Positions 1-19,955 of a stretch of 22,938 nucleotides of DNA are shown piece after piece. This DNA is from a virus. Each line of letters opens with the position of its first letter. Position 1 is the stretch's first letter. Location of the stretch: positions 1 to 22,938 of IMG/VR virus record IMGVR_UViG_3300031898_000018. One strand, given 5' to 3'. The notes beneath the pieces are model-generated. The model was not told the origin of the DNA. It did not search any database and worked only from the letters and a program-made list of their open reading frames with translations. The position numbers and the translations under genes were made by a program.

Positions 1-46
1 CTGTTAAATTCTCTAAATCCATATCTAATGCCAGGGTAATTCTCAT
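1..46 (-). CDS. Partial small protein, N-terminus only
   Basis: A reading frame on the minus strand starts with ATG at 46 and runs off the left edge of the window. The visible start reads MRITLALDMDLENLT. A GGGAGG Shine-Dalgarno site lies just upstream, separated by a few bases. It belongs to the same leftward series as the genes to its right. Too little is visible to suggest a function. Confidence 0.55.
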   Translation of the reverse strand, partial: MRITLALDMDLENLT

Positions 47-70
47 TCTCGCCTCCCTTTTTTAAAAAAA

Positions 71-241
71 TTATTCTCCGATACCCTCAATAGAAATAAC
101 TCGCAGATAAGCATTGCATTTTTGTTCATTAGCCCATTTATCGGCTTCTTCTAATTTTTCAAATAATTTGATACTTCCATCCTCATTCTGTATGCAAGTT
201 ATATAATCACTTCCCTTGACCCAATATAAAATCATATACAT
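71..241 (-). CDS. Small hypothetical protein, 56 aa
   Basis: The frame starts with ATG at 241, has an AAGGAG site 8 bases upstream, and ends with TAA. The product begins MYMILYWVKGSDYITC and contains the charged stretch KLFEKLEEADKWANEQK, which looks like one amphipathic helix flanked by beta strands. The next gene upstream on this strand stops 3 bases before its start codon, so the two are probably co-translated. An alternative ATG lies two codons in. The family is not recognised. Very small proteins like this are typical of early or accessory regions of phages. Confidence 0.6.
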   Translation of the reverse strand: MYMILYWVKGSDYITCIQNEDGSIKLFEKLEEADKWANEQKCNAYLRVISIEGIGE

Positions 242-244
242 TTT

Positions 245-451
245 TTATCTCCTTGTTTTATTTTTAACCTCTTCTACATCCCATAAATTTCTTCCCAAGA
301 CAGATTCGGGCTTAGAAGGGCTTACTTGATCCCCAAATCCCCCTTCTACTTTTAGCTTTGCCTCTTCTGGGCTTCTTGCATCTATCTCTATTTCATAAGA
401 ATATATTTCTTTAACTGTTACCTTGTAGCGCTTTAATTTTTGTTCTTTCAT
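245..451 (-). CDS. Small hypothetical protein, 68 aa
   Basis: The ATG at 451 is preceded by a GAGGAG site at good spacing. The N-terminal half (YKVTVKEIYSYEIEIDARS) alternates hydrophobic and charged residues as in a beta sheet. It is followed by SPEEAKLKVEGG, a pattern common in small phage proteins of the form beta-beta-(A/S)xxEAxxKA. The C-terminus is basic (KNKTRR). There are no catalytic motifs. It sits between two other short leftward genes with gaps of 3 and 32 bases. The fold guess (beta sheet plus one helix) is inference and the function is unknown. Confidence 0.6.
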   Translation of the reverse strand: MKEQKLKRYKVTVKEIYSYEIEIDARSPEEAKLKVEGGFGDQVSPSKPESVLGRNLWDVEEVKNKTRR

Positions 452-483
452 TTAAATCTCCTCTTTTGATTGTGATGCTTTGC

Positions 484-855
484 TCAATCTAGCATTGAGT
501 CGATATAAACCATGTAACCCAAACCGTTCAGATAATTAGACACCTGAGAATAGGCATGCTTCTGTATCTCAAAATCACCATTTCCTTTGTGGCCTATTTC
601 GTTCATATACAATCTCAATCCTCCACCATAAGCAGGCTTGGTTTTTAATCCTTGCATTGCCAATACTCTTTTTAACTCTCTATTTTTCCCTTTACACCAG
701 AATCTCAATGATGTAAATCCACACAAAAAGAAATTTCCTTCATTCTCATAAACCTGCCCGGTAGAATTATCCACTACTCTTATCGGTGATGTTCCCTTCC
801 TGCGTTCCCACTCTTTTTTATAAGCGTCCTCATAGATTTTTTGCAGATTCTCCAT
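484..855 (-). CDS. Hypothetical protein, 123 aa
   Basis: The ATG at 855 has an AAGGAG site about 10 bases upstream that lies inside the end of the preceding gene, so the two genes overlap by 26 bases and are probably translationally coupled. The N-terminus is helical and charged (MENLQKIYEDAYKKEWERRKG). The centre is aromatic and cysteine-containing (FFLCGFTSLRFWCKGKNREL) and a glycine-rich turn (AYGGGLRLYMNEIG) follows. No known motif is recognised. It is one of the larger proteins in the leftward block, and its mixed composition suggests a globular intracellular protein. Confidence 0.6.
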   Translation of the reverse strand: MENLQKIYEDAYKKEWERRKGTSPIRVVDNSTGQVYENEGNFFLCGFTSLRFWCKGKNRELKRVLAMQGLKTKPAYGGGLRLYMNEIGHKGNGDFEIQKHAYSQVSNYLNGLGYMVYIDSMLD

Positions 856-1021
856 CGTCCGTTATCTCCTTCGGCTTAGGGCAATCCGGTATGTGATAAT
901 ATAACCCTTCTCCGTCTTTCTTTAGCGTACCTCCCGGATTACCACAGAGTTTGCAGATAATGAAGTTCCCAACAATAGATTTACAAGAATTCTTCGGTTT
1001 TAGTTTTAAGAGATTTTTCAT
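830..1021 (-). CDS. Small zinc-ribbon-like protein, 63 aa
   Basis: I place the start at the ATG at 1021, because GGAGGAG ends 5 bases before it. The frame extends 24 bases further upstream to a TTG, but that extension contains the ribosome binding site itself. The product has CKLCGNPGGTL followed by a HIPDCPKP segment. That gives three cysteines and a histidine able to bind one zinc. The same CxxCGxxGGTL pattern recurs in the rightward gene at 6253-6627 (CYRCGCAGGTLIKH), so the two may be distant paralogs. Zinc binding is inferred from residue spacing; the role (nucleic-acid or protein binding) is unknown. Confidence 0.6.
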   Translation of the reverse strand: MKNLLKLKPKNSCKSIVGNFIICKLCGNPGGTLKKDGEGLYYHIPDCPKPKEITDDGESAKNL

Positions 1022-1037
1022 CGTCTCCTCCATTTTT

Positions 1038-1220
1038 TTACTCAACTAACTCTGGAATCTCATCGCAGTCATGAACGAGGCTCTGAATAGAGCTCGCCTC
1101 ATAGATCTCATCGGCTTCATTTTTAATCCTTTCTCTCAATGATGGAATATCCTTTAACTCCTCTTCTTTAATCTCGGTCTCAAAAGTAACCGGGTAGACT
1201 ACTGTGATTTTGATTTTCAT
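1038..1220 (-). CDS. Small acidic hypothetical protein, 60 aa
   Basis: The ATG at 1220 is preceded by an AGGAGGTGAT site. The product begins MKIKITVVYPVTFETEIKEE and then has an acidic helix (LRERIKNEADEIYEASS). This beta-then-helix layout resembles the 68-residue protein at 245-451. The C-terminus (DCDEIPELVE) is acidic. Its 5' leader holds the structured RNA candidate at 1266-1347, the only leader of this type seen in the window, so expression may be controlled there. No family is recognised. Confidence 0.6.
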   Translation of the reverse strand: MKIKITVVYPVTFETEIKEEELKDIPSLRERIKNEADEIYEASSIQSLVHDCDEIPELVE

Positions 1221-1265
1221 CTCATATCACCTCCTGCCTTGCTTTTTCTTAGATGGTATTAAATA

Positions 1266-1347
1266 GGGCGGAGACAGAGAGGGCATAACCTTTTTATTCT
1301 GTCCTTTAACTGTCTTAGCTATAACAGTTCGTCCCTACATTCCGCCC
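1266..1347 (-). ncRNA. Candidate structured RNA or 5' leader element
   Basis: The 82 bases between two leftward genes fold on paper into a closed three-stem shape. A 7-bp closing stem joins GGGCGGA (1266-1272) to TCCGCCC (1341-1347). A second stem, GACAG (1273-1277) with CTGTC (1299-1303), abuts the first without a gap. A third, AACTGT (1308-1313) with ACAGTT (1324-1329), has a 10-base loop. The GC-rich closing stem stands out in AT-rich DNA. It would form the leader of the gene at 1038-1220. Segments AGACAG and CTGTCT offer alternative pairings, as in regulatory leaders. No known riboswitch class is recognised, and the strand is inferred from the neighbouring genes. Confidence 0.4.
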
Positions 1348-1355
1348 CATATTTT

Positions 1356-1601
1356 CTATTTTCTTAATAATTTCTCTGCTATTTTAATTGCCCTTCCGGC
1401 AGATATCCCGCCCTGTTCCTCTGCAAAACTCACCCAGGATTCTCCATCAGAATCCCAGGCGCATTTAAATAGCGAGATAGAATCTTTATGAGGATTAGAA
1501 TAAGGACAGGGATCTAAATCGCAACCAGAACACATACCAGATTGATGAAGAAAAGAGACGAATTTATTATATATTTCCTTCTCTTTTTTACTTAATCTCA
1601 T
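1356..1601 (-). CDS. Cysteine-rich small protein, 81 aa
   Basis: I choose the ATG at 1601, which has GGGAGG 8 bases upstream; the open frame continues to a TTG at 1628, but that extension contains the ribosome binding site. The N-terminus is a charged helix (MRLSKKEKEIYNKFVSFL). The centre, MCSGCDLDPCPYSN, followed by FKCAW, places four cysteines close together and could bind zinc or an iron-sulfur cluster. The C-terminus (GRAIKIAEKLLRK) is a basic amphipathic helix. The previous gene on this strand ends 20 bases upstream of this start. The family is not recognised. Confidence 0.6.
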   Translation of the reverse strand: MRLSKKEKEIYNKFVSFLHQSGMCSGCDLDPCPYSNPHKDSISLFKCAWDSDGESWVSFAEEQGGISAGRAIKIAEKLLRK

Positions 1602-1621
1602 AAATTCTGCCTCCCAGGTTT

Positions 1622-1858
1622 TTACCAATTTTCCAGATTAGAATAATACCATTCCTCTTCTAAAATTATCTCCTCACAATCTCTACAATAGCCCGCGAAA
1701 CCTGTGCTATTAGCAGAGTTATTAATAGTTAATTTTCTCCCGCAATGTTTACATCCGTTGTTCTTGATTCTGATTTTAATCATTGATACCAAAGATATAA
1801 CTCCGATAATCACTAAACAAATGCTAGCCCAGATTGAGAAGATTAGATTGAGATTCAT
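1622..1858 (-). CDS. Single-span membrane protein with zinc ribbon, 78 aa
   Basis: The ATG at 1858 follows GGGAGGTG with good spacing; an in-frame GTG at 1867 overlaps that site and is less likely. Residues about 5-28 (LIFSIWASICLVIIGVISLV) form one hydrophobic transmembrane segment, followed by positive residues (KIRIKNN). This predicts the C-terminal part inside the cell by the positive-inside rule. That part has CKHC and CRDC pairs, a classic four-cysteine zinc ribbon, then an acidic aromatic tail. The stop of the upstream gene lies 5 bases before this start. A membrane-anchored zinc ribbon is clear from the sequence; its partner is not. Confidence 0.65.
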   Translation of the reverse strand: MNLNLIFSIWASICLVIIGVISLVSMIKIRIKNNGCKHCGRKLTINNSANSTGFAGYCRDCEEIILEEEWYYSNLENW

Positions 1859-1863
1859 AATTT

Positions 1864-2049
1864 TCACCTCCCTGTTTTTGAAAAATCTTCTGCCTCAAAC
1901 CGCTGTGCCAAACCATAAAATTCAGGATCTGGCGCAATAATCTCAACCCCTGAATTATTTTTCTCGCGCAGATAATCTATTAAATTCTGAACATCGCTAT
2001 AGATTCCCTTAATCTCCACGATTGACCTGTAGATTTTAACATCTCTCAT
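1864..2049 (-). CDS. Small hypothetical protein, 61 aa
   Basis: The ATG at 2049 has a strong GGAGGTG site, and the leader upstream of it contains TCTAAAAACAGGAGG, a box shared with other genes of this block. The product MRDVKIYRSIVEIKGIYSDV continues with LIDYLREKNNSGVEIIAPD, an alternating strand-helix-strand pattern. Its last codons (KTGR, stop) contain the ribosome binding site of the next gene, so the pair is tightly coupled. No motif identifies a function. Confidence 0.6.
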   Translation of the reverse strand: MRDVKIYRSIVEIKGIYSDVQNLIDYLREKNNSGVEIIAPDPEFYGLAQRFEAEDFSKTGR

Positions 2050-2099
2050 CCTGTTTCACCTCCTGTTTTTAGATTTTAATTTAATTGCCAAACACCAAT

Positions 2100-2252
2100 T
2101 TATCTCCATATTACTACTGGTAATTGCAGAGTTATCTTGATATTCTTCGTTTTCCCTCTTTTTATCAACCAAAGATGGATACTCCATTTTCTCCGATCAT
2201 TCAAAACCAGATATAAAGCATATTTCCAGATAGTAAATATCCTGATTAACAT
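2100..2252 (-). CDS. Possible very small basic protein, 50 aa
   Basis: A minus-strand frame runs from ATG at 2252 to TAA. A GAGGTG site lies 8 bases upstream, and the leader carries GAATCTAAAACAG, similar to the leader of the gene at 1864-2049. The product (MLIRIFTIWKYALYLVLNDR, then a basic half with KRGKTKNIK) is hydrophobic at the start and positively charged later. It might attach to membrane, or might not be real. The evidence is position, strand, leader similarity and ribosome site only. Confidence 0.3.
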   Translation of the reverse strand: MLIRIFTIWKYALYLVLNDRRKWSIHLWLIKRGKTKNIKITLQLPVVIWR

Positions 2253-2277
2253 CCTCAATCACCTCTGTTTTAGATTC

Positions 2278-2319
2278 AGATGGCAGAGGAAAAAACAGGA
2301 TGAAAAACCTCTGCCATCT
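2278..2319. repeat. Perfect 12-bp inverted repeat (hairpin)
   Basis: AGATGGCAGAGG (2278-2289) is perfectly complementary in reverse to 2308-2319, with an 18-base A-rich loop (T-rich on the minus strand). No T run follows either side, so it does not look like a simple intrinsic terminator. It stands just upstream of the possible 50-residue gene. It may be an RNA-processing hairpin or a protein-binding site. Confidence 0.6.
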
Positions 2320-2397
2320 CCCATGAGGTCATATATACGCTGTTTTTTGCCTATTCACGGATTAGAGTTCTTCAGATTTCCCCAGATATCTAAATAT

Positions 2398-2468
2398 AAA
2401 AACGAAGAGAGGATATATACATTACCGATTATTATCTAGGGTAATGTTTTACATTAATATACCCTCTC
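2398..2468 (-). terminator. Candidate long-stem terminator after the 2480-2659 gene
   Basis: GAGAGGATATAT (2407-2418) pairs with 2457-2468 (11 of 12 positions). Inside it, ACATTACC (2419-2426) pairs perfectly with GGTAATGT (2440-2447), and a 9-base bulge sits on one side. On the minus strand the stem is followed by TTCG and then five T residues (2402-2398). This fits a terminator for the gene ending at 2480, or an attenuator within the leftward operon. The U tract is short, so read-through is likely. Confidence 0.45.
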
Positions 2469-2479
2469 CCGTTTTTTGA

Positions 2480-2659
2480 TTACTCCTGATTCTCCCGTTC
2501 TTGTAATATCTCCCTGATTCTTGCTTCTTGCTGTTGAAGGTCATCTAACCTTCTCCGTCTGTTGTGCCGTTCTGCCCTTATCTGGTTGATAGTTAAAAAT
2601 TTGAGTTTTCTCCTCAGATCGGCAGTCGGCCACGTTAGAAAGGCTCTGCCGTGTCTCAT
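2480..2659 (-). CDS. Small highly basic coiled protein, 59 aa
   Basis: I choose the ATG at 2659 because GGGAGG lies 4 bases upstream; a further ATG at 2677 precedes the ribosome site and would place it inside the gene. The product starts MRHGRAFLTWPTADLRRKL and is then an arginine-rich helix (IRAERHNRRRRLDDLQQQEA). Heptad-like spacing continues to the end, so a short coiled coil or a nucleic-acid-binding helix is plausible. There is no hydrophobic membrane segment. The function is unknown; DNA or RNA binding is inferred only from charge. Confidence 0.6.
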   Translation of the reverse strand: MRHGRAFLTWPTADLRRKLKFLTINQIRAERHNRRRRLDDLQQQEARIREILQERENQE

Positions 2660-2686
2660 TTTCCTCCCACCTCCCATTTTTATTTT

Positions 2687-3004
2687 TTACTTCTTGATTA
2701 TCCTCCGAAAAATCTCAAGATAGGTTTCTCCTCTTGGCTTCTTCGGATAATACTTCTCATCAAAACACCTCAAGCACAATCTATCATCTCTACTGATTGC
2801 TGAATAGAGATACTTAACCTCTGCCCCGCATTTGCAACGCAAGAGAGCGCTTTTTGTAGATTCGTTAGGAGTGAATTTCGGATAGCAGATTGGCAGGTCA
2901 TAGATTGAGATTTGGTCAATGGTCGCAGATATGGATGCGAGGCGCAGAGACGATGCAGATTGGCGCTTGGGCCGGTTTATCAGCCGCAGGATGATGCTAT
3001 CCAT
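2687..3004 (-). CDS. Zinc-ribbon protein of unknown function, 105 aa
   Basis: Three start codons are close together: ATG at 3013, GTG at 3010 and ATG at 3004. The AAAGGAG site touches the first ATG, so the ATG at 3004 has the most reasonable spacing. The N-terminal half is basic and hydrophobic (MDSIILRLINRPKRQSASS). The C-terminal half has CKCG, then CLRCF about 24 residues later, a typical pair of zinc knuckles, and a basic end (YPKKPRGETYLEIFRRIIKK). It lies 27 bases before the basic protein gene at 2480-2659. DNA binding is plausible, not shown. Confidence 0.6.
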   Translation of the reverse strand: MDSIILRLINRPKRQSASSLRLASISATIDQISIYDLPICYPKFTPNESTKSALLRCKCGAEVKYLYSAISRDDRLCLRCFDEKYYPKKPRGETYLEIFRRIIKK

Positions 3005-3037
3005 CTCCACCATCTCCTTTCCTATTTTTCTCCTTAG

Positions 3038-3082
3038 CCTGTTCCCTAATACTGCTAGATAGTGGTACAGTCTAACCCATTT
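3038..3082 (-). repeat. Inverted repeat partner A flanking the 3133-3411 gene
   Basis: Read on the minus strand this 45-base element matches the plus strand at 3478-3521. The core at 3050-3073 agrees with 3488-3511 at 22 of 24 positions (shared parts include ACCACTAT and TAGCAGTA). The element lies downstream of a small gene and its partner lies upstream, in opposite orientation. Confidence 0.65.
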
Positions 3083-3132
3083 TTTTGTTACTGCTACTTA
3101 CTTTAGGTTATACCATCTCCCTATTGTTGTTT

Positions 3133-3411
3133 TTACTGTTGCTGTTGCTTCTGCTGTTGCTTCTGCTGAGAAAATTCAACCGCTTTTTGTAGTATAACCT
3201 TCCCATCACAAGATCCCAATTTCGCGATCAAATAATCATTGATTTTCTGTTTGAGATCTGGTGCTTCTCGCTGTACCTGTCTGAACTCATCCGGATTTTT
3301 ACAAGCAGTCGCAGGAACACGAAAAAACGTCACATAGTAACCGACGCTTGCAACTTCTCCGTTCTTCTTCTTCGTCTTTGCCTGATTTACTTTTTGTAGA
3401 ATCATTGACAT
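3133..3411 (-). CDS. Hypothetical protein with polyglutamine tail, 92 aa
   Basis: The ATG at 3411 has a GGAGGG site 9 bases upstream, in a leader carrying TCTAAAAACTGGAGG. The N-terminus is basic (MSMILQKVNQAKTKKKNG), followed by a beta-rich segment (VASVGYYVTFFRVPA). The last 14 residues (EFSQQKQQQKQQQQ) are nearly all glutamine, encoded by an imperfect 12-base CAG/CAA/AAG repeat that may vary in length by slippage. The gene is bracketed by an inverted repeat pair. The family is not recognised; a low-complexity Q-rich tail often mediates protein contacts. Confidence 0.6.
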   Translation of the reverse strand: MSMILQKVNQAKTKKKNGEVASVGYYVTFFRVPATACKNPDEFRQVQREAPDLKQKINDYLIAKLGSCDGKVILQKAVEFSQQKQQQKQQQQ

Positions 3412-3477
3412 AGTCTTTACCCTCCAGTTTTTAGATTTTTGGATTGCAACTCAAATTATAGATTGCAATCGTGCCTA

Positions 3478-3521
3478 AATGGGTATAAGACTATACCACT
3501 ATGTAGCAGTACCAGGGCAGG
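3478..3521 (+). repeat. Inverted repeat partner B, with internal hairpin
   Basis: This copy pairs with the element at 3038-3082. It contains a perfect small hairpin (GGTATA, AGAC, TATACC) not preserved in the partner, followed by the shared TGTAGCAGTA. It lies 67 bases upstream of the start codon at 3411, so it is in the leader or promoter zone of that gene. Confidence 0.65.
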
Positions 3522-3542
3522 CAAGGCCTGGGGATGCCTAAC

Positions 3543-3564
3543 AATGTTAGCTAAGCCTAACATT
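3543..3564. repeat. Perfect 8-bp inverted repeat
   Basis: AATGTTAG (3543-3550) pairs with CTAACATT (3557-3564) across a 6-base loop. An overlapping alternative palindrome CTAACA-A-TGTTAG precedes it, and GCCTAACA occurs twice (3536 and 3555). It lies in the 200-base gap between the 3133-3411 and 3639-4037 genes and may be a regulator site or an RNA hairpin. Confidence 0.45.
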
Positions 3565-3585
3565 ATGTATGTAATTGCTAAACAG

Positions 3586-3610
3586 CTAACTTGACTACAT
3601 AAGTCAATAG
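3586..3610 (-). repeat. TTGACT palindrome C, inverted copy of 4083-4107
   Basis: TTGACT (3591-3596), five bases, AGTCAA (3602-3607) form a perfect palindrome. The 25-base element matches the reverse complement of 4083-4107 at 24 of 25 positions. It sits 29 bases beyond the stop of the 3639-4037 gene. It resembles an operator more than a terminator, since no T run follows. Confidence 0.65.
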
Positions 3611-3638
3611 CACCTTTGCCCTCTTCAGTTTTTTTGTG

Positions 3639-4037
3639 CTACCTATCCGCCCACTTTTTACACATTTCTAAATGCGCCTGGTACGCTTCTCCTGGACTGT
3701 TACAAGCGTAAAAATCTATCTCAATGTTGTTTGCCCTTATGTATGGACAACAGTCAAATTCGGATCGCTTCGCTAAAAATACCATTGTTTCATATTTTCT
3801 ACCCAGGCCAATGTCTACTATTGTTGTGTCGGGCAGTATTTCCCCAGTGTTCCTATTTACATAATCTTCGATACTGAGTTCTCCAATCGTGGAGACTATG
3901 TAACCATTCACATAGGTGTTTAGCCTAAAAGCACATCTGGCACCGTCTACAAAGTGGCCAGCGTGTGGCATCCATACCCACCCTTGTTCTTGGTGTCCGT
4001 GCAGGTTTGGCTTTGTCAATAGTTTTGTCTTCGTCAT
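3639..4037 (-). CDS. Hypothetical protein, 132 aa, first gene of the leftward block
   Basis: The ATG at 4037 follows GGGAGG by 8 bases; the open frame reaches an ATG at 4070, but that would put the ribosome site inside the gene. The product begins MTKTKLLTKPNLHGHQEQG and includes WVWMPHAGHFVDGARCAFRL, which is rich in H, W and C. Later come EFDCCPYIRAN and YACNSPGEAYQAHLEMCKKW. Five cysteines and several histidines could bind metal, but the spacing fits no known motif. It is the promoter-proximal gene of the leftward operon and is bracketed by the TTGACT palindromes. The function is unknown. Confidence 0.6.
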   Translation of the reverse strand: MTKTKLLTKPNLHGHQEQGWVWMPHAGHFVDGARCAFRLNTYVNGYIVSTIGELSIEDYVNRNTGEILPDTTIVDIGLGRKYETMVFLAKRSEFDCCPYIRANNIEIDFYACNSPGEAYQAHLEMCKKWADR

Positions 4038-4082
4038 CGTTTTTACCTCCCGTTTTTTATGAGAAGGCAAAGGTTAACTTCA

Positions 4083-4107
4083 CTATTGACTTGTGTAGTC
4101 AAGTTAG
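4083..4107 (+). repeat. TTGACT palindrome D, inverted copy of 3586-3610
   Basis: TTGACT (4086-4091), five bases, AGTCAA (4097-4102). The 25-base element is nearly identical, in opposite orientation, to the copy on the other side of the gene. It lies 46 bases upstream of the ATG at 4037, in the transcribed leader of the leftward operon. The half-site is the same hexamer that is tandemly repeated in the promoter at 4331-4359. Confidence 0.65.
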
Positions 4108-4109
4108 TC

Positions 4110-4330
4110 AGTCAGCAATTTATCCATATATTCAATTTTCAAATAACAAACCCATTGAATCGTTTTAATCCTGCTAGCATACCATTCTACCACGCCGTAA
4201 GGAGCTACTTGCAACGCTTGCCCGTCACTTTCACCGTTTACCTATGCTTCAGGTCTTTTAATTGCTACCAGTGTTTATCGTGTTCAGCAGGCAACCCGTC
4301 TATATTCATTTTTCAAATCCTTCCACCCTT
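4110..4330 (-). other. Long leader of the leftward operon with interrupted reading frames
   Basis: No intact gene is seen. On the minus strand an ATG with a GGAAGGATTTG site opens a 13-codon frame (MNIDGLPAEHDKHW, then TAG). The same frame continues in a protein-like way through three more stops (QLKDLKHR, TVKVTGKRCK, LLTAW). A different frame is open for about 45 codons (including QALQVAPYGVVEWYASRIK) but lacks a good start. This could be a leader peptide, a decayed gene, or a structured leader RNA; the sequence does not decide. Confidence 0.3.
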
Positions 4331-4359
4331 ATTTTACCACAAGTCAAAGTCAAAGTCAA
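4331..4359 (-). promoter_or_regulatory. Sigma70-like promoter with tandem TTGACT boxes
   Basis: On the minus strand TTGACT (4359-4354) is followed after exactly 17 bases by TAAAAT (4336-4331). The spacer holds two more TTGACT copies in direct 6-base tandem. The position, upstream of the first leftward gene with no other gene between, fits the main leftward promoter. The tandem hexamers equal the half-site of the palindromes at 3586 and 4083, so the promoter may also be bound by a regulator of the same specificity. Confidence 0.5.
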
Positions 4360-4436
4360 ACAAAAAAATAAAAAAATAAAAATACATTCATTTTTTTATT
4401 TTTACATTTGATAAGTTACTTTAAGTTTTGGGATCG

Positions 4437-4460
4437 GTGACAATTCAGGCAAATTGTCAC
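4437..4460. promoter_or_regulatory. Perfect 9-bp palindrome, candidate operator
   Basis: GTGACAATT (4437-4445), a 6-base spacer, AATTGTCAC (4452-4460). The size and symmetry are typical of a binding site for a dimeric repressor. It lies about 80 bases upstream of the leftward promoter. The half-site GGTGACA recurs in the imperfect palindrome at 6000-6016, just before the first rightward gene. Confidence 0.5.
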
Positions 4461-4787
4461 TTCTGTTATACTTTTTCTATTTTATCGTCGACGAATTGAT
4501 AAAAATATCAGAATACCGGGGGATAGAAAATTTTTTGCTCTTTTTTGGCATTTTTTTGGAAGTATCTAGTATATCCATTATGATAAATTCTGAAATTCGA
4601 CTTTTCAAATTTTCAAACTTATCGTCTGACTAAAAATGCGCAAGGCTTTTGATTTAATTCATTTTCTCCTATTTACCATTTAGAGCTATCTATTACCATT
4701 TAATATCATCTATTTCAATTCACTTGCTTTTTTAGCAAGTAATTTCAAATCATATATATTTAATTTAATGTTTTCTTTAGTTAGTAT

Positions 4788-5107
4788 CTAGTAAAAATTC
4801 AAAAAACGACTTTTTATAATTATCATGATCATATATTCTAGGCTCTAGTATAATATATATACTCTAGGCTCTATTAGGTACTCTAAGTCTCTGGATTAAT
4901 AATCTAGTTATTATATTATAAATATCATGATCTAGATATATTATAAGCTCTAGAACATATTCTAGGCTCTCTAGTACAAGATAAGTTCTAGTTATTCTAG
5001 TCTGGTACTGGTCACATGATCATGATCTAGAATACTAGTATTAAACATGGTACATGATCAAGATAAGCTAGAGAGAGTATTAGAGAGGCTATATAGTACA
5101 AGATAAG
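4788..5107. repeat. CTAG- and CATGATC-rich repeat field
   Basis: CTAG occurs 14 times between 4788 and 5071. CATGATC occurs five times (4824, 4926, 5015, 5021, 5053). A 21-base near-repeat at 4965-4985 and 5087-5107 shares TAGTACAAGATAAG (19 of 21 positions). AATACTAGTATT at 5031 is a 12-base palindrome. CTAG is normally rare in bacterial DNA, so this density reflects selection or a local amplification process. Origin or protein-array binding is the likely role; this is inference. Confidence 0.6.
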
Positions 5108-5117
5108 CTTAAGGCCT

Positions 5118-5146
5118 TTGACTTGGACTTAATTAGTAGATCTTAT
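5118..5146 (+). promoter_or_regulatory. Possible rightward promoter
   Basis: TTGACT (5118-5123), 17 bases, TCTTAT (5141-5146; 4 of 6 matches to TATAAT). A transcript from here would begin close to the first G run at 5154. It is weak evidence by itself, but it reuses the TTGACT hexamer found in the leftward promoter. A second weaker candidate is TTGACT at 5624-5629 with GAATAT at 5647. Confidence 0.25.
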
Positions 5147-5153
5147 ACGGATC

Positions 5154-5200
5154 GGGGGGTTCCTCATGTGTTGTAGGGGGTCCTAGGGGGGAGTGGGGGG
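5154..5200 (+). other. Four long G runs, possible G-quadruplex
   Basis: Runs of 6, 5, 6 and 6 G residues at 5154-5159, 5176-5180, 5186-5191 and 5195-5200 have loops of 16, 5 and 3 bases. This meets the pattern of an intramolecular four-tetrad or larger quadruplex. It is conspicuous because the surroundings are very AT-rich. Confidence 0.55.
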
Positions 5201-5297
5201 TCTGATATAAGTGCTCATATGCCTAATCAGTTATAGTTTTTTTGGCTCAATATTTTTAAGGGGAATAATGCACCAGCGCCTTCTCTCGTCTTAAACA

Positions 5298-5343
5298 GGC
5301 AAATTTAATTTTAAGCCTTTACTAATGTGGCTTAAAATTTGCC
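5298..5343. repeat. 15-bp hairpin with 5-base bulge
   Basis: The right arm 5329-5343 (GGCTTAAAATTTGCC) pairs fully with the left arm 5298-5317 if five bases bulge out on the left. The loop is 11 bases. No U tract follows. It could be an origin or RNA structure in the non-coding region. Confidence 0.5.
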
Positions 5344-5509
5344 CTCATTTATAAACCTTTATGGATATACACAAAAGCGTTTACCGAAATGATAAGTATT
5401 TTTAAGCATTATCTAATAATCATTAAAATTGAACTTAAATAAAATGTCTTATTTAATATAGTTTGAAATCGCTTAACAATTTGGTAAGTGGTTTTTACAA
5501 ATTTTAAAT

Positions 5510-5565
5510 CCCCGTTGGCCATGTTGCCCGCGGGAAAACATAGATTTGAATTACTTAAAACGGGG
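5510..5565. repeat. Nested inverted repeats
   Basis: CCCCGTT (5510-5516) pairs with AACGGGG (5559-5565). Inside, ATGTT (5521-5525) pairs with AACAT (5537-5541) around GCCCGCGGGAA. The G+C-rich patch is unusual in this region and may mark a structured RNA or protein site. Confidence 0.4.
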
Positions 5566-5757
5566 CTTCTGAACCATATAATCTTAATCTATATTAAAAT
5601 TACTTATCATTTTAGCAAATAATTTGACTTTAAGCGGTACTTCCTAGAATATATATAAGCTCTAGATAATATAGAGGGCAGGATAACCAGCCGGGTGTAT
5701 GTATAAAAGGAGGGTTGAAAGTTTCATTTTGTGTGTAGAATACAGATTGCCTTTATT

Positions 5758-5969
5758 TTAACCCACAGACCGGCGCCACAATAGGGGGTTTTCATGGAAT
5801 TTGCCTATTATGCATGAGATTTTGATCGCAATCTGCAAACGATGAATCTCCTTATCCGCAGAAGAATATAGGACATCGCGAACTTCAGCAGACAATTTAT
5901 CATACTGGATATAGCAGAAGTTATTAAAAACTCATTCGAGAAGGTCTGCTCAGATTTTTTAAAACTCAT
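5758..5969 (-). pseudogene. Possible frameshifted gene remnant
   Basis: On the minus strand an ATG at 5969 opens MSFKKSEQTFSNEFLITS. A second frame, open from 5931 to the stop at 5758 but without an ATG, reads protein-like (YDKLSAEVRDVLYSSADK, then EIHRLQIAIKISCIIGK). A one-base shift at the T5 tract near 5926 would join them into about 70 residues. There is no ribosome site before the ATG. It may be a decayed gene or chance; confidence is low. Confidence 0.22.
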
Positions 5970-5999
5970 AAAAAATATAACAGAATTAACAATTAAATA

Positions 6000-6016
6000 G
6001 GTAACAGGCTGTCACC
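6000..6016. promoter_or_regulatory. Imperfect palindrome, candidate operator
   Basis: GGTAACAG-G-CTGTCACC is symmetric except for one pair. It stands 39 bases before the first rightward start codon and shares the GGTGACA half-site (minus strand) with the perfect palindrome at 4437-4460. A regulator controlling both directions is possible. Confidence 0.35.
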
Positions 6017-6054
6017 ATTTTTAGGTACAAGAATGAAGAGAGGGATATCCACTG

Positions 6055-6237
6055 ATGACTTATATTTCTATCCTGGTAAGATATTTGATTTGTCAAAATT
6101 GTAAATGGTGTTACGATCCTAATTTAACTGCAAGCACTGCATATATTTTTTTACAGCCAAAATATGAAATGGGGGCAGATGGTAATTGGCATTATTTCTG
6201 TCCCATCTGCGGCGGAGTTTTAACCTTAGTATTTTGA
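6055..6237 (+). CDS. Small zinc-ribbon protein, 60 aa
   Basis: This is the first gene of the rightward series. The ATG has a purine-rich GAGAGGG site about 10 bases upstream. The product has CQNCKWC near residue 14 and CPICGG near residue 49, a four-cysteine zinc ribbon with a spacing of about 33 residues. It starts with a hydrophobic stretch (MTYISILVRYLI). The next gene begins 15 bases after the stop. Zinc binding is inferred from the cysteine pattern and the function is unknown. Confidence 0.6.
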   Translation: MTYISILVRYLICQNCKWCYDPNLTASTAYIFLQPKYEMGADGNWHYFCPICGGVLTLVF

Positions 6238-6252
6238 AGGAAAAGGATTTAT

Positions 6253-6627
6253 GTGAAAAGATTCCGGAGAAAGAAAAATATTAAATCGGTCTTTGAAAAA
6301 ACTGATGATAAAAAGTCAGCTCTAAAATCAACATTGAGGAGAATAGTTTGTTACCGATGTGGATGTGCGGGAGGAACCTTAATTAAACATTCCATTGGGT
6401 ACTGTCATCAGGATCCGAGAATATGCGCTCAAAATCTTAAACGCATAAATCTCTGGAAAGAATTTGAGCGAACCAAAGAAAGGATTCTTAAAAGAAGAAG
6501 TCATCTTGATTACAAAGTTTTGGCATGGCTTTATGCTCAATGGCAAGAAATTTGGGAATTTTTCAGACAAGAAAAATGGAGGATTTGTTTAAGGGGAGGA
6601 AGGGTATATGGGAATGAGAAGGGATGA
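6253..6627 (+). CDS. Basic cysteine-rich protein, 124 aa
   Basis: The start is GTG, because the ATG two bases earlier is followed at once by TGA; AAGGA lies just upstream. The N-terminus is very basic (MKRFRRKKNIKSVF). Residues about 33-58 hold CYRCGCAGGTLIKH and then GYCHQDPRIC, able to bind one or two zinc ions. The motif resembles the leftward gene at 830-1021 (CKLCGNPGGTL). The C-terminal half is a long helix rich in W, R and E (LAWLYAQWQEIWEFFRQEKW). It overlaps the next gene by 20 bases. Nucleic-acid binding is plausible but unproven. Confidence 0.6.
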   Translation: MKRFRRKKNIKSVFEKTDDKKSALKSTLRRIVCYRCGCAGGTLIKHSIGYCHQDPRICAQNLKRINLWKEFERTKERILKRRSHLDYKVLAWLYAQWQEIWEFFRQEKWRICLRGGRVYGNEKG

Positions 6628-7366
6628 GTTTGAAGCAAGGCTGTATATCTGCAAGAAATGTGGCAAACCCAAAGTAAGGAAAAGATTAAGCGTCAGGAAT
6701 CCTCCTAAGTATTGTCCGGATTGTTTAGTGAAGGTAAGACTGGGGAATATAAAAAGGGCGAGAGAAAAGAGAGAACAAGTCGCAGAAGTTCCGCCAATCA
6801 TTGTAACTGCTCCCGATGGATTTCCTCTAAAACTTAAAAATGAAGCAGAGCAAGAATATTATGAAGGGAGAAAGGGAGAATATCTAAAAGAATTTGATTG
6901 GGCTGAATCGTCAGATCTTAGTCTTCTTTCAAGGCTTTTAAGTTTAGAAATTCAATGTCGTAGACATGAGAATAATGATAAACCCAAGGAATGGGAGACG
7001 AGGCTTTATATTGATTCAATAAAAGAGATTCAGAATTTGCAACAACGGTTGGGAATATTAAGGCTTCAGCGGAAAAAGAAAAAGGAAGAAAGAGGCCCTT
7101 TAGACATAGTTCAGGATTTAATAAAAAGATTTAACAAGTATCGGGAGGAAAATCCTGATAGGTTTGTTTGGATATGTTCTAAATGTGGAGAAAAGAATTA
7201 TCTAAAGAGAGAAAATACAGATTATGCAACTCTGCATTATGCAGAGTTGCACAATGAACATTCAACACCGATTATTGAAAATACCAAAATTGAAGTAATT
7301 GAAGAAACGGGGTCTACGCCAATATTGGAAGAGAGTGGCGCTACCCCGATAGAAGGAGGTGATTAA
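6608..7366 (+). CDS. Two-zinc-knuckle helical protein, possibly small-terminase-like, 252 aa
   Basis: The ATG follows GGGGAGG at good spacing. Residues 15-40 carry CKKC and CPDC, a zinc ribbon close to those of ribosomal or phage DNA-binding proteins. The middle (about residues 100-175) is helical with a repeated L/R/E pattern (DLSLLSRLLSLEIQCRRH; IKEIQNLQQRLGILRLQRKK). Near residue 192 a CSKC pair is followed by two histidines (HYAELHNEH), a possible second zinc finger. The tail contains repeated TPI and E-rich segments (GSTPILEESGATPIEGG). The helical core resembles some annotated phage terminase small subunits in pattern only. The location well upstream of the large terminase weakens that idea. 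Confidence 0.5.
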   Translation: MGMRRDEFEARLYICKKCGKPKVRKRLSVRNPPKYCPDCLVKVRLGNIKRAREKREQVAEVPPIIVTAPDGFPLKLKNEAEQEYYEGRKGEYLKEFDWAESSDLSLLSRLLSLEIQCRRHENNDKPKEWETRLYIDSIKEIQNLQQRLGILRLQRKKKKEERGPLDIVQDLIKRFNKYREENPDRFVWICSKCGEKNYLKRENTDYATLHYAELHNEHSTPIIENTKIEVIEETGSTPILEESGATPIEGGD

Positions 7367-7367
7367 A

Positions 7368-7595
7368 TTGGCAGAAACTAAATTAACCTGGACCGCCTAT
7401 TGGCGATCGATTGTCAGGTCTTTAAGAACAGGACTAGTTGTTTACGGGGTCTCTGTTCTTGCTGTAGTTATTGGTAATTTTCCCAAATTAGATTATTGGT
7501 ATATTGCCATGATATCCGGAGTAATTGCGGGTATTTTCAAAATGCTACGCGAGAAATATCCAAATTCAGTATTCTGGAAATATTTGCCTCTATAA
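7368..7595 (+). CDS. Two-span small membrane protein, holin-like, 75 aa
   Basis: The TTG at 7368 is 8 bases after a perfect AGGAGGTGAT, which makes it better than the in-frame GTG at 7359 that lies within that site. The ribosome site is inside the end of the preceding gene. The product has two hydrophobic segments (GLVVYGVSVLAVVIGNF and WYIAMISGVIAGIFKM) separated by a short turn, with basic residues before the first. The size and topology fit a class II holin, but no lysin gene is next to it. Other small membrane proteins are equally possible. Confidence 0.5.
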   Translation: MAETKLTWTAYWRSIVRSLRTGLVVYGVSVLAVVIGNFPKLDYWYIAMISGVIAGIFKMLREKYPNSVFWKYLPL

Positions 7596-7625
7596 GTTGA
7601 GATAAATACGGAAAGGATGGATTAT

Positions 7626-7784
7626 ATGAAAGGATTGAAAGCGAAAGCAAAAATTAAGAAAGCAAGGATCTCGGCCAGAGTATACAGGGCTGAAACAGGG
7701 AAATGGGAGAATTTAGGAGTTATTTATAAAGTAGAAAATTTTTTAGAAAAGATTATAAAAAAATTAAAAAAAGTCTTTAGTTAG
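7626..7784 (+). CDS. Small basic protein, 52 aa
   Basis: The ATG at 7626 is preceded by AAAGGAT. The N-terminus is strongly basic (MKGLKAKAKIKKARISARV), followed by YRAETGKWENLGVIYKV and a lysine-rich helical tail ending KKLKKVFS. The segment ARVYRAETGKWENLGVI resembles short proteins found between phage structural genes; this is pattern memory, not a search result. It fills the gap between the membrane protein and the first structural gene. Confidence 0.5.
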   Translation: MKGLKAKAKIKKARISARVYRAETGKWENLGVIYKVENFLEKIIKKLKKVFS

Positions 7785-7812
7785 TAAGAATTCTTGAAAG
7801 AGGAGGAGAGAG

Positions 7813-8178
7813 ATGGCAACTGTGCTTAAGCAGGTTGGAGAGGAGTGGATTATCGATAAACTCGATGAAGTGATTCAAACAACCGGTGATTACATTGGAT
7901 GGGGATCCGGAGCGGGAACTCACACCAAAACCAATCCCTCCAATGCTTTATTTACCGAAGAATCAGAGACAAGGGTAGTAGCAACGAGAACTCAACCAGC
8001 GGCAGACAAAATCAGGTGGGTTGGGACTCTTACCGCTGACGCAGCGAAGACAATCACTAACGCAGGAAACTTTACTGCTGTTACCAGCGGGACTTTGATT
8101 GTGGCGGGGGATTTTACGGGTATACCTCTTAGCCAGGGGGATAAAATTGAGTTTACCATTGAGTTAGAAATTACTTAA
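7813..8178 (+). CDS. Probable virion structural protein, 121 aa
   Basis: AGGAGGAG precedes the ATG at good spacing. The composition is Thr/Ala/Gly-rich and beta-forming, without charged clusters. The motifs IGWGSGAGTHTKTN, ALFTEESETRVVATR and DKIRWVGTLTADAAKTITNA follow a layout seen in phage tail-fibre or decoration proteins: a glycine turn, then E-x-x-R-V, then an I-x-x-x-x-T-x-x-x-A strand. It ends in alternating strands (GDKIEFTIELEIT). There is no signal peptide. A structural role is inferred from composition and from the following genes, and the exact place in the particle is unknown. Confidence 0.55.
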   Translation: MATVLKQVGEEWIIDKLDEVIQTTGDYIGWGSGAGTHTKTNPSNALFTEESETRVVATRTQPAADKIRWVGTLTADAAKTITNAGNFTAVTSGTLIVAGDFTGIPLSQGDKIEFTIELEIT

Positions 8179-8279
8179 TGGGCAATTAAATTATGCCTAT
8201 TATAGTATCGTGTCAAATTTGCAATAAAGAGTTTCAGTCAAAGCTATCGACAGATAAATATAAGCGAGGAGGGCAGAAT

Positions 8280-8594
8280 ATGAAAATAGGCGAAGTGATA
8301 GACGCAAGGAAACATAGATTTGCGGGGGCAGAGCCGAATTATGCAGAGTTAGACCCGCTATTGACAAACAGGGATTTGACTCTGGAAGTGATGCAGGAAA
8401 TCAAGGATAAACTGCTGGTGTTGAAAGAAGCGGCAAAGCAAAGTCAGATTAAATTGGAAGAAGTCGGCGAAGGCGAGTTTTTTGTATGTAAGAATTGCGG
8501 AACAAAGAACTTTGGCAAGTGGCTTAAAGACCCCGTTGATGGGAGCTTATTCAAGTTCTGCGGGTCTTGTAACAAGGTATTGGAGGTGAAATGA
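8280..8594 (+). CDS. Zinc-ribbon protein of unknown function, 104 aa
   Basis: I choose the ATG at 8280 because AGGAGG lies 8 bases upstream. The frame stays open to an ATG at 8193 without a clear ribosome site; that extension encodes MPIIVSCQICNKEFQSKL, which looks like half of an HNH-type zinc finger. The core has KEAAKQSQIKLEEVGEG and then FVCKNCGTKNFGKW and FCGSCNKVLEVK, a complete four-cysteine ribbon near the C-terminus. The stop overlaps the next start (ATGA). It may bind a virion or nucleic-acid partner, but the function is unknown. Confidence 0.6.
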   Translation: MKIGEVIDARKHRFAGAEPNYAELDPLLTNRDLTLEVMQEIKDKLLVLKEAAKQSQIKLEEVGEGEFFVCKNCGTKNFGKWLKDPVDGSLFKFCGSCNKVLEVK

Positions 8595-8812
8595 TGCCTA
8601 AAATTAAAGAGATGCTGGACCAGAAGATTGTTAACTTAGCGCACATACCTATGGGCGATATACCAGAAGACTATGACCCTGAGGAAATAATAAACAATGA
8701 TTCCTGGTGTGACCTGAAAATTGAATTAGAAAATGGAATAAAGATTTATTGCTACGATGTTACTGCAGAAACTAAAGAGGAGTCGGAAAAAAGAGGAGTC
8801 GGAAAAAAATGA
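8591..8812 (+). CDS. Acidic hypothetical protein, 73 aa
   Basis: ATG at 8591 (or 8594) follows GGAGGTG and overlaps the previous stop. The product MMPKIKEMLDQKIVNLAHIP continues acidic (MGDIPEDYDPEEIINNDSW) and then has strands (DLKIELENGIKIYCYDVTA). The last 12 residues (KEESEKRGVGKK) are encoded by a perfect 16-base tandem duplication that is read in two different frames. The stop overlaps the next ATG. No family is recognised. Confidence 0.55.
   Translation: MMPKIKEMLDQKIVNLAHIPMGDIPEDYDPEEIINNDSWCDLKIELENGIKIYCYDVTAETKEESEKRGVGKK
8776..8807 (+). repeat. 16-base perfect tandem duplication
   Basis: The unit AGAGGAGTCGGAAAAA occurs twice in a row. It contains a GAGGAG ribosome-binding core, so the second copy supplies the site for the gene starting at 8809 while both copies encode the end of the previous protein. 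The length is not a multiple of three, so the second copy is translated in a shifted frame. Confidence 0.75.
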
Positions 8813-9039
8813 TTAAGAATGTGGGGACGGCAAGCGTTGGCTATGATGAGGCGACAAAGGTTCTGCGATTAGTTTTTGGCAGGCAGGTGATTGAGATTAA
8901 GAACATAGATATGGAGATGTTTGCCGAACTCTGTGCGGCATTTGGATATTTCAGGGACAGGTTCAATTCAAAGCAGGAAATCATAAAATATAAATCCATT
9001 GACAAATTTTTCTTTTTGAATGGTAAGGGGGTGAAGTAA
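8809..9039 (+). CDS. Hypothetical protein, 76 aa
   Basis: The ATG overlaps the upstream stop, and the stop overlaps the next ATG by one base, so the gene is embedded in a coupled run. The product begins MIKNVGTASVGYDEATKVLR, a beta-hairpin-like start, then RQVIEIKNIDMEMFAELCAA and an aromatic basic end (FGYFRDRF, SIDKFFFLNGKGVK). It is a globular small protein without a recognised motif. Its ribosome site arises from the 16-base duplication. Confidence 0.55.
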   Translation: MIKNVGTASVGYDEATKVLRLVFGRQVIEIKNIDMEMFAELCAAFGYFRDRFNSKQEIIKYKSIDKFFFLNGKGVK

Positions 9040-9413
9040 TGGCAAGAATATTTCAGGCAGATTTACTTACAACGACAGCATCAGGAACAGGTGTTGATGT
9101 TTCAACTTACACCGTCCCATCGGGGAAAACATTGACCTTGAAAGTTCTCGGAATGGGTGGAGAGCCGACGACCTGGTCAACGGCCGAGGCATCTCTCGGC
9201 TATGTCTATCCAGAAATTGCTGGCTTAGACAAAAGAGGGCTTGAAGTCAGGGTAATGGCTGGTGATGTTACTGGCATCAATATCCAGTATCTCATCATTG
9301 AAATCCCTGGCGGAATTACTTTTGCCCAGACTGAAACAGTTCAGGTTGAATGCGACCCTGCGGGAACGACATCAACGAGATGGAGAGGGATAATCATAGG
9401 AGATGAGGCTTAA
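9039..9413 (+). CDS. Virion beta-domain protein, single copy of a repeated domain, 124 aa
   Basis: ATG at 9039 with AAGGGGGTG upstream. Residues 24-35 (YTVPSGKTLTLK), 54-69 (GYVYPEIAGLDKRGLE) and 116-121 (RGIIIG) match the N-terminal domain of the next protein almost motif for motif (YTVPAGKTFYLK, GYIFPSIAGNDKRGLE, GTIIG). The fold is predicted to be a beta sandwich, since hydrophobic and polar residues alternate throughout. Such domains are common in tail fibres, decoration proteins and virion knobs. The one-base overlap with the next gene indicates co-translation. A structural role is inferred. Confidence 0.6.
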   Translation: MARIFQADLLTTTASGTGVDVSTYTVPSGKTLTLKVLGMGGEPTTWSTAEASLGYVYPEIAGLDKRGLEVRVMAGDVTGINIQYLIIEIPGGITFAQTETVQVECDPAGTTSTRWRGIIIGDEA

Positions 9414-10756
9414 TGGCAAGATTATGGGAAGATATTAAACAGGAAATTCCCTTCACTTTTACGCTCTGCTCTTATACTGTTCCTGCTGGCAAGACTTTTT
9501 ATCTTAAAAATCTGATTATGTCAGGAGAATCAGGAATAGTCGACACGGCTGGTATGGGTGGTTCTGGTTATATTTTCCCCAGTATTGCAGGAAATGATAA
9601 GAGAGGGTTGGAAAATTTTCTTTGGAATCATTTTTTGGGAACGAATTGCGGTATTTATTGTGGTGATGGTGGTTCTGGCAGAGGAATAATGAAACAGCCA
9701 TATAGGGAAGGCGTCGGCAATTATTTAGGTATTGACGCAGATTTTGATGGGAATGGTATTCCGTTTAATGAGGGAGAAACTATCGCCATAAAATATATTC
9801 CCGTTTTTTGTTTGCAATCCGACGTTTATAGTTTTAACGATATCAATATTGCAAGACAATTTTACCTTGGCACAATCATCGGCAAATTGAATGACGGGAC
9901 GAGGATATGGATAGAAGAAAAGAGGTTAATAAGTCCTTATTATGAATTCTGGAGTTATACAGTTCCTTTAGCCAAGAAGGCAACAATTAAACATTTGACT
10001 CTTGGAATTACTGAAGAATGGGGAACTGGAGAGGCGGATGTTGGAACTATTCTTGTGTTAATAGACCATAAAGCTTATAGAGGTTTATCTTTAAGATGTA
10101 TGAGAGGAGACCAGGTTTATGGTGCTTCGGGGACAGTGCCGATGGCGATAGGGACTGCTTCTGCAAACCATTTCTCTTTTGCCAGAGCAACTAAACTCGT
10201 AGAGGATTTGGTGCTTTATGAAGGGCAAATAATTTCTTTTGCTTGGTTTTATCCTCAAATTGGGCCAATAAGTATATGGTTTATAAAAAATTTAGAAAAT
10301 GTCTTTTACAAAACAAACTACCTCAAAGGCACGATAATCGGGGATCTGGAGGATGTTGATAGCCCTTGGTATGGGGAAGGAATTCTGATTAGAGAAACAG
10401 GGGCCAATGCCAGGGGAGGATCAGGTTCTTGTGCTAAGTTAATACCTTTTTCTACGGATGTACCGCTATACTGGAAATTTCTTGTTCCGGTTACTGCTTC
10501 AACAAATTTTCAATTAAAGTTCTGGCATAAGATAAGCTCTGGTTTTAATGGTTCGGTTAAAGTTACGATTTATGATACCGATGACGAAACAAAGTTATTA
10601 GACCAGCAGAGCGTTACTCTAACTGATGATGGACAATATCATCAATATACTGCAACTGGTGTTACTCCCGCTAATACTGGATTTTGTAGATGTGTTGTAG
10701 AAATTCTGAATGGGATAAAAAGAGGGGTCATATATATAGATGATATAGAGGCATAA
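9413..10756 (+). CDS. Three-domain virion protein with C-terminal CBM-like domain, 447 aa
   Basis: The protein starts one base inside the previous stop. Domain 1 (about 1-158) and domain 2 (about 175-312) each have SYTVP near the start (20-24, 181-185) and GTIIG near the end (153-157, 306-310), so the unit of the previous gene is duplicated here. Domain 3 (about 318-447) has the look of a carbohydrate-binding jelly roll: YWKFLVPV, FQLKFWHKISSGFNGSVKVT, an aromatic YHQYTATG strand, and a final GVIYIDDIEA, the typical closing strand of CBM4/9-like modules. A role in host-surface binding is plausible. The next gene starts immediately after the stop. Confidence 0.6.
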   Translation: MARLWEDIKQEIPFTFTLCSYTVPAGKTFYLKNLIMSGESGIVDTAGMGGSGYIFPSIAGNDKRGLENFLWNHFLGTNCGIYCGDGGSGRGIMKQPYREGVGNYLGIDADFDGNGIPFNEGETIAIKYIPVFCLQSDVYSFNDINIARQFYLGTIIGKLNDGTRIWIEEKRLISPYYEFWSYTVPLAKKATIKHLTLGITEEWGTGEADVGTILVLIDHKAYRGLSLRCMRGDQVYGASGTVPMAIGTASANHFSFARATKLVEDLVLYEGQIISFAWFYPQIGPISIWFIKNLENVFYKTNYLKGTIIGDLEDVDSPWYGEGILIRETGANARGGSGSCAKLIPFSTDVPLYWKFLVPVTASTNFQLKFWHKISSGFNGSVKVTIYDTDDETKLLDQQSVTLTDDGQYHQYTATGVTPANTGFCRCVVEILNGIKRGVIYIDDIEA

Positions 10757-12064: not shown

Positions 12065-12065
12065 T

Positions 12066-12356
12066 ATGTCAAAAGTCTACAAGGGAGACATTGGAACAAA
12101 ATTTATTATTTCGGCAGGAGAGGATCTTACTGATGTAATAGACCATAAACTTAAGATTCTTAAGCCGGATAAAAGTATAGTGGAGTGGATTACATCAATA
12201 GAGGGAAATCCTGTTGATGGGAAAATTTCTTATATTGCAATAGAAGGGGATTTAGACCAAAAGGGATTATACAAAGGCAATGCTTTTATAGATTTCGGGG
12301 ATTCTAAATTCACTGGCGAGACCTTTCAATTTATTGTTTTTGAGATGTTTGAATAA
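12066..12356 (+). CDS. BppU-like baseplate/tail protein, 96 aa
   Basis: I choose the ATG at 12066, just after the previous stop; an in-frame TTG at 12057 is possible. The product VYKGDIGTKFIISAGEDLTD, then HKLKILKPDKSIVEWITS and a C-terminal KFTGETFQFIVFEMFE, follows the pattern of the small N-terminal domain of phage baseplate upper proteins (KGD-x-G-T, D-L-T, K-x-P-D-G/K, E-W, K-F-x-G-E). In such phages this domain anchors receptor-binding parts. It is a lone domain here. Family recognition is from memory of the motif set. Confidence 0.6.
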   Translation: MSKVYKGDIGTKFIISAGEDLTDVIDHKLKILKPDKSIVEWITSIEGNPVDGKISYIAIEGDLDQKGLYKGNAFIDFGDSKFTGETFQFIVFEMFE

Positions 12357-12376
12357 TCGTGGAGGAGGAGGTTGGG

Positions 12377-14376: not shown

Positions 14377-14387
14377 GGAGGATAAAT

Positions 14388-15728: not shown

Positions 15729-15963
15729 TAAGACTGGTATTGAAATGAGGATGGCAGTATTGGAAACCAAATTTGAAGGTCTATCAAAGGAAATAATTGA
15801 AATTAGAGACAATCACCTTGCGGGGATAAATCAAAAATTAGATAGTCTTACAAGAATGTTTCAGACAAGATTGCCTCTCTGGACATCTATTTTGATTACA
15901 TTATTAACTTCCGGCTGCATAGGATTATTGACACTTTATTTGGCCACAATAAATAAAATTTAA
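15712..15963 (+). CDS. XhlA-like membrane protein with coiled coil, 83 aa
   Basis: The gene overlaps the portal end by 17 bases. I use the ATG at 15712; its nearest GGAGGAG is about 13 bases away, so an ATG at 15745 is an alternative. Residues about 15-50 form a coiled coil (ETKFEGLSKEIIEIRDNH, INQKLDSLTRMF). Residues about 57-80 form one membrane span (WTSILITLLTSGCIGLLTLY). This coiled-coil plus C-terminal span is the layout of XhlA/hemolysin-type holin partners of phages. The placement between portal and hydrolase is unusual for a lysis gene; a head or packaging membrane link is also possible. Confidence 0.55.
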   Translation: MNKKNNKTGIEMRMAVLETKFEGLSKEIIEIRDNHLAGINQKLDSLTRMFQTRLPLWTSILITLLTSGCIGLLTLYLATINKI

Positions 15964-15972
15964 GGAAATCAA

Positions 15973-19921: not shown

Positions 19922-19955
19922 AAGCAGAACATGATAAATAAAAGGCGAGAATAAA

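Follow-up and report, generated by a model that had tools for sequence, protein, structure and literature searches.

Gene content and the strand switch

The window analysed here, 22,938 bases long, comprises an entire virus record, whose ends are linear by its IMG/VR class, one that often denotes a fragment. A gene-free strand switch at 4071-6054 separates a leftward gene block (1-4070) from a rightward block (6055-22938), and inside this gap of about 2 kb lies a field at 4788-5071 that is crowded with CTAG tetramers and other short palindromes, in agreement with an earlier sequence-only reading, which had placed it between divergent operons. Neither the lists of open reading frames nor a scan with variant genetic codes gave any convincing gene in 4071-6054. 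A hidden gene read with an altered code was considered by trying TAG, TGA and TAA each as sense codons and was rejected, the longest stop-free stretch being 158 codons (TAA as sense, 4023-4496). No tRNA was found in the gap, and no Rfam family reached its gathering score there, a chance-level miRNA match (E 0.86) being the only one obtained.

The proteins recognised in the window are an HNH nuclease (12359), a large terminase (12880), a portal protein (14373), a metallo-beta-lactamase fold, a DNA ligase, an AAA+ ATPase and a prohead protease; the virus is a tailed virus, as yet unclassified. The ATP-dependent DNA ligase domain is located in the middle of a 1055-residue protein (16754-19921) with long flanking domains, and the only annotated match of this protein in the phage collection is to ANMV-1, which infects an uncultured archaeon. 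A Cdc48/PAN-like AAA+ ATPase gene (19956-21185) stands between those for the ligase and the prohead protease, which is unusual for a structural gene block, and tandem repeats of 12/24/36 bases at 22007-22099 encode a Glu/Lys-rich stretch of the prohead protease protein. Amongst the leftward genes, the small protein of ORF 245-451 shows a weak DpnD/PcfM match that lies below the cut-off (E 7.5e-5). The predicted structures of ORF 3133-3411 and ORF 6608-7366 have pLDDT values of 49 and 55, respectively.

Scans of virus contigs with single proteins (terminase, ORF 6608-7366, portal and ligase) returned no relatives. Alignment-based scans recovered distant loci only, at identities of about 20-36%, namely 10 with the terminase, 13 with the ligase and 80 kept of 116 with a wider terminase alignment, which repeats some loci of the first terminase scan. 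Terminase kin share 20-29% identity, and the three closest (L115, L116 and L117; 26-29%) carry no other protein of the window in the stretches compared. A scan of genome contigs gave 11 loci matching the common ligase core only, none of them with a further protein of the window except for a Cdc48-like ATPase in L104. Ligase-core similarity to Nanoarchaeota, Parvarchaeota and Daviesbacteria assemblies (27-30%) is too weak to name a host. DNA searches against phages (near and distant) and plasmids (distant) gave no match, and in the open-access literature searched, titles and abstract beginnings did not point to any account of such a field in this virus.

The AT-richest 100 bases of the window (4741-4840, 16% G+C) adjoin the left end of the field and may serve as an unwinding element. 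Cumulative GC skew, which had been suggested as a check, reaches its minimum at 4971, within the field, and the cumulative purine minimum falls at 5028; the skew minimum is weak evidence, since gene direction flips there too and the field makes up 17% of the gap. The gene-free stretches to the left of the field are C-rich (skew -0.23 and -0.16), and those to its right are mixed (+0.26, -0.05 and +0.11). Directly to the right, four G runs of 6, 5, 6 and 6 bases are found on the + strand at 5154-5200, as the sequence-only reading had noticed, and they could form a long-loop quadruplex. Amongst the large hairpins that it also described, one is clear, right of the field at 5298-5343 (z -3.1 on the + strand and -2.6 on the - strand for the folded segment 5280-5429), whereas the folding of the field itself is not unusual (z -0.33 as RNA and -1.94 as single-stranded DNA).

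Other features of the gap include an inverted repeat of 26 bases in its right half (5380-5405 / 5594-5619), which is 85% complementary and encloses 188 bases; taken with the nearby hairpin (5298-5343), it may belong to a structured RNA or to the remnant of a small element. On the left, AAGTCA is repeated 3.3 times at 4331-4360, where a promoter-like site facing left (TTGACT-17-TAAAAT with TG) overlaps the repeat.

An excess of short palindromes

A recount reproduced the 14 CTAG in 284 bases (4788-5071) reported earlier, with starts from 4788 to 5068, out of 43 in the 22,938-base window. The accompanying statement that roughly one would be expected holds for base composition (0.76), but a fair expectation is higher, because the field is TpA-rich (1.46 times expected). 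Dinucleotide shuffles of 4780-5120 contained 4.2 ± 1.75 CTAG and at most 10, none of 2000 reaching 14, while sequences from a second-order Markov model of the field averaged 4.9, with 14 or more in none of 5000. The five CATGATC heptamers were likewise recovered, at 4824, 4926, 5015, 5021 and 5053, with no copy elsewhere in the window; 0.016 are expected, and not one of 2000 dinucleotide shuffles held five. The near-repeat, given before as 21 bases, was found as 22 bases (4964-4985 / 5086-5107) with 20 of 22 identical (91%).

Nor is CTAG equally dense elsewhere, as no 300 bases of the record outside the field hold more than 3. In 187 control loci (2,238,116 bases), which do not sample viruses at random because they were fetched via protein or pattern matches, and a few of which overlap or share one record, the maximum was 8 CTAG per 341 bases (L146 and L092). 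A 16-letter pattern derived from the repeat matched 76 loci, none with a CTAG field and all with at most 6 CTAG per 300 bases. The cluster is real and statistically extreme.

The label CTAG is nevertheless too narrow, since CATG, GATC and GTAC are enriched as well, with 6, 5 and 5 copies in 4780-5120 against 0.4, 1.5 and 0.9 expected, as compared with 14 against 4.3 for CTAG in the same count. Together with CTAG these are all four of the palindromes with outer C/G and inner A/T; none of AGCT, TGCA, TCGA, ATAT, TATA and TTAA is raised in the field. The best 341-base stretch for the four tetramers combined is the field itself with 31 copies, whereas the maximum is 7 in the remainder of the record and 16 in the 187 control loci. 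Considering all palindromes of a given length in 4780-5120, there are 62 of four bases (38.8 ± 5.1 in shuffles; none of 1000 reached 62) and 13 of eight bases (4.0 in shuffles; 2 of 1000 had as many), with no significant excess at ten bases (3 versus 1.3; 158 of 1000 shuffles). They are densest at 5015-5042, where CATGATCATG, GATCATGATC and AATACTAGTATT occur.

Outside the field, the record holds fewer of these four tetramers than expected (observed/Markov-expected: CTAG 29/46, CATG 27/51, GATC 48/96, GTAC 12/25), in line with the avoidance of CTAG on which the sequence-only reading had drawn, and the same applies to some other palindromes (ACGT 5/16, CGCG 9/18). Such depletion agrees with the idea that the field is a restriction-modification target or decoy composed of CTAG, GATC, CATG and GTAC sites, or acquired DNA that escaped the avoidance, for which halovirus and plasmid precedents can be cited (PMC11431627, PMC7230728, PMC2194725). 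Haloarchaeal viruses can be wholly or nearly without CTAG and GATC (PMC2194725, PMC7230728). An acquired region of the plasmid pHILL-c2 contains four CTAG within 122 bp (PMC11431627), a case that resembles the field in being a CTAG cluster within an element that otherwise avoids CTAG. The pHILL-c2 sites, however, lie by an acquired gene, whereas those of the field number 14 in 284 bp and are accompanied by repeats within a probable control region. Foreign DNA would moreover be expected to bring an average density and not a several-fold excess over the field's own trinucleotide model, and the want of enrichment of AGCT, TGCA and TCGA also argues against restriction or acquisition, which we regard as extremely unlikely.

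The earlier suggestion of a site field for a methylase is poorly supported, as the enrichment extends to CATG, GATC and GTAC instead of being specific to CTAG, and none of the proteins searched could be recognised as a methyltransferase. Strong restriction of CTAG in the host is unlikely because the depletion in the virus is only mild. A related possibility is a reserved palindrome field, the four tetramers being scarce in the genes and gathered in a single control region, by which the origin would be marked through host methylation or host restriction/modification enzymes would be drawn off the genes; we hold this to be highly unlikely.

Amongst the loci used for comparison, avoidance of individual palindromes can be much stronger. 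Three ligase-bearing loci (L091, L093 and L096) have zero CTAG in 15.2, 13.1 and 20.6 kb, where 14, 9 and 22 are Markov-expected, which suggests hosts that restrict CTAG, and AGCT is missing from L005 1-21062, where 71 are expected.

Diverged repeat units

On reading the alignments, three diverged direct repeats were found to underlie the field, with the form CATGATC-(26-35 bases)-AGGCT..TA.GTAC..ATAAG, the ..ATAAG end being more altered in unit A. All are on the + strand: unit A at 4824-4889 (CATGATC ... AGGCTCTATTAGGTAC ..), unit B at 4926-4985 (CATGATC ... AGGCTCTCTAGTACAAGATAAG) and unit C at 5053-5107 (CATGATC ... AGGCTATATAGTACAAGATAAG), and a partial fourth copy, D, is found at 5644-5687 (CTAGAATATATATAAGCTCTAGATAATATAG ...). 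Local alignment scores exceeded those of all 300 shuffles for A versus B (85.5; shuffles 48.9 ± 5.8), B versus C (62.5; 38.2 ± 4.9) and B versus D, taken as the piece 5631-5700 (42.5; 28.1 ± 4.4). The alignments of A with C (99 of 300 shuffles), A with D (28 of 300) and C with D (38 of 300) are not significant.

The 14 CTAG are divided into 8 in the units (181 bases), 5 in the linkers (103 bases) and 1 outside. CTAG was considered as the conserved core of the units and rejected, its positions differing between units; according to the alignments, about three sites align between A and B and most are altered in unit C. Duplication of a unit is insufficient by itself to account for the CTAG density, because the linkers between units carry CTAG too.

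The poor conservation of the copies, with A-C not significant and D partial, is consistent with a relic, in which an AT-rich palindromic stretch was locally duplicated a few times and is now decaying without function. Worn word-repeats in an intergenic region of another phage (L146 19840-20260) point in the same direction. Against a relic, the linkers are as described CTAG-dense (5 in 103 bases) in a virus otherwise short of palindromes of this SWWS type, and 2 kb of idle DNA is uncommon in a compact virus; on balance a relic appears unlikely. The L146 region is C-rich on its left (CCTAGCC, CCTTGCC) and G-rich on its right (GGCTAGGC, GGCAGGG), has 8 CTAG in 300 bases and adjoins an apparent tRNA gene, as judged by eye.

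Spacing is irregular throughout, the CATGATC of units A, B and C being 102 and 127 bases apart and the five heptamers following one another at 102, 89, 6 and 32 bases. No helical phase of CTAG was detected at 10.4-10.6 bp (resultant 0.18-0.21), and the best period, 9.5, has a resultant of 0.66, below the 95% null value of 0.68. For a partition (centromere-like) array maintaining a low-copy element, which was amongst the earlier suggestions, the 7-base repeats in AT-rich non-coding DNA are what would be expected, but the uneven intervals between the heptamers do not fit, and a search of the neighbouring genes recognised none of ParA/ParB/TubZ-like or ribbon-helix-helix type. With nothing specific in its favour, partition is the least probable of the readings considered here.

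A putative origin or control region

Our leading reading, held tentatively and at somewhat less than even odds, is that the field may be a cis-acting protein-binding array in a control region, most likely one that includes the replication origin. Divergent orientation of the blocks around a gene-free gap, together with repeats, palindromes and the position of the skew minimum, fits the earlier idea of an origin or operator array, or of both in one. Amongst the features of iteron-type origins, at least three direct repeats in non-coding DNA are represented by A, B and C (with A-B and B-C significant and A-C not), and an adjoining AT-rich unwinding stretch by 4741-4840, which has the lowest G+C of the window; regular spacing or helical phase was not found. 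The window proteins that were searched included no recognisable replication initiator, polymerase or helicase, and the record may be a fragment.

Known initiator sites were looked for by their consensus sequences. The gap holds 5 DnaA boxes at one mismatch, a number reached by 51 of 300 shuffles and hence no enrichment, and the whole window 27 versus 24.2. The archaeal Orc1/Cdc6 ORB (TTCCANTGGAAAC, up to 3 mismatches) is not found in 4071-6054 and occurs 13 times in the window, against 31 by chance.

The same repeats and palindromes between diverging gene blocks could instead belong to a bidirectional promoter with an operator array, at whose palindromes a viral or host regulator would switch the leftward block, probably early, and the rightward, structural block, without an origin. 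Promoter-like sites facing outward are present at 4359-4331 and 4608-4580 (leftward) and at 5555-5582 (rightward). Such sites are, however, no commoner than in shuffles (17 versus 13.1 ± 3.6), and the nearest outward candidates, matching at 10 of 12 positions, are about 180 and 450 bases off the field. No clear DNA-binding regulator was seen in the leftward proteins searched, ORF 245-451 matching phrog_36 weakly (E 0.023). Sites of the trp operator type are likewise CTAG-centred short palindromes placed close together; the field differs from them in its irregular spacing, and no TrpR-like gene was recognised.

Tailed archaeal viruses of the genus Haloferacalesvirus provide a precedent for control of this kind. 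Intergenic repeats of HF2 bear promoters, and three direct repeats of 12 bp occur in a bidirectional promoter region common to haloferacalesviruses, so that repeated AT-rich elements stand at points of transcription control, as they may in the window (PMC8707807). They differ in that their 58- and 29-bp repeats are found at several places in genomes without CTAG (PMC7230728), while the window has a single CTAG-rich cluster. We rank an origin first and an operator array second on account of the low G+C at the edge of the field, the nearby G runs and the separation between the field and promoter-like sites; a promoter and operator region without an origin is doubtful, if a serious contender.

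A packaging (pac/cos) site recognised by a small terminase subunit was also considered. ORF 6608-7366, located 1.5 kb rightward of the field, resembles L005 8674-9321 (E 1e-6, 25%); in the L005 virus the large terminase is encoded two genes downstream of that ORF. The identity of ORF 6608-7366 as a small terminase is a guess, because no terminase family matched and the predicted model is poor, and the HNH nuclease, large terminase and portal genes are 7-9 kb from the field. Packaging, which we also judge highly unlikely, lacks support, as do the partition and methylase readings.

Returning to the origin, a close likeness is with the iteron-type origin of the Vibrio cholerae PLE satellite, a noncoding region whose semi-palindromic repeats are bound by the initiator RepA; it shares with the field a gene-free setting, several types of repeat and semi-palindromic repeats (PMC7145576). 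For PLE, by the same account, the initiator is known and the repeats were tested, whereas no initiator was recognised in the window, its copies are far more diverged and its palindromes densely packed. A control region or origin is an ordinary kind of element; it is the composition that is unusual.

In an origin of this sort, a dimeric initiator or regulator would bind the repeated palindromic sites, and it would probably be encoded by the virus outside the present fragment. The AT-rich stretch at 4741-4840 would then open, and forks, as well as transcription, would depart both ways. The CTAG density would reflect copying of the repeat combined with a preference of the protein for short palindromes, CTAG in itself being no signal.

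Should the field serve this virus as origin or switch, it would offer a handle on the replication and regulation of a lineage nearly without recognisable relatives. The contrast between palindrome-poor genes and a packed field would also make it possible to test whether a virus retains restriction-type sites solely at positions required by a binding protein.
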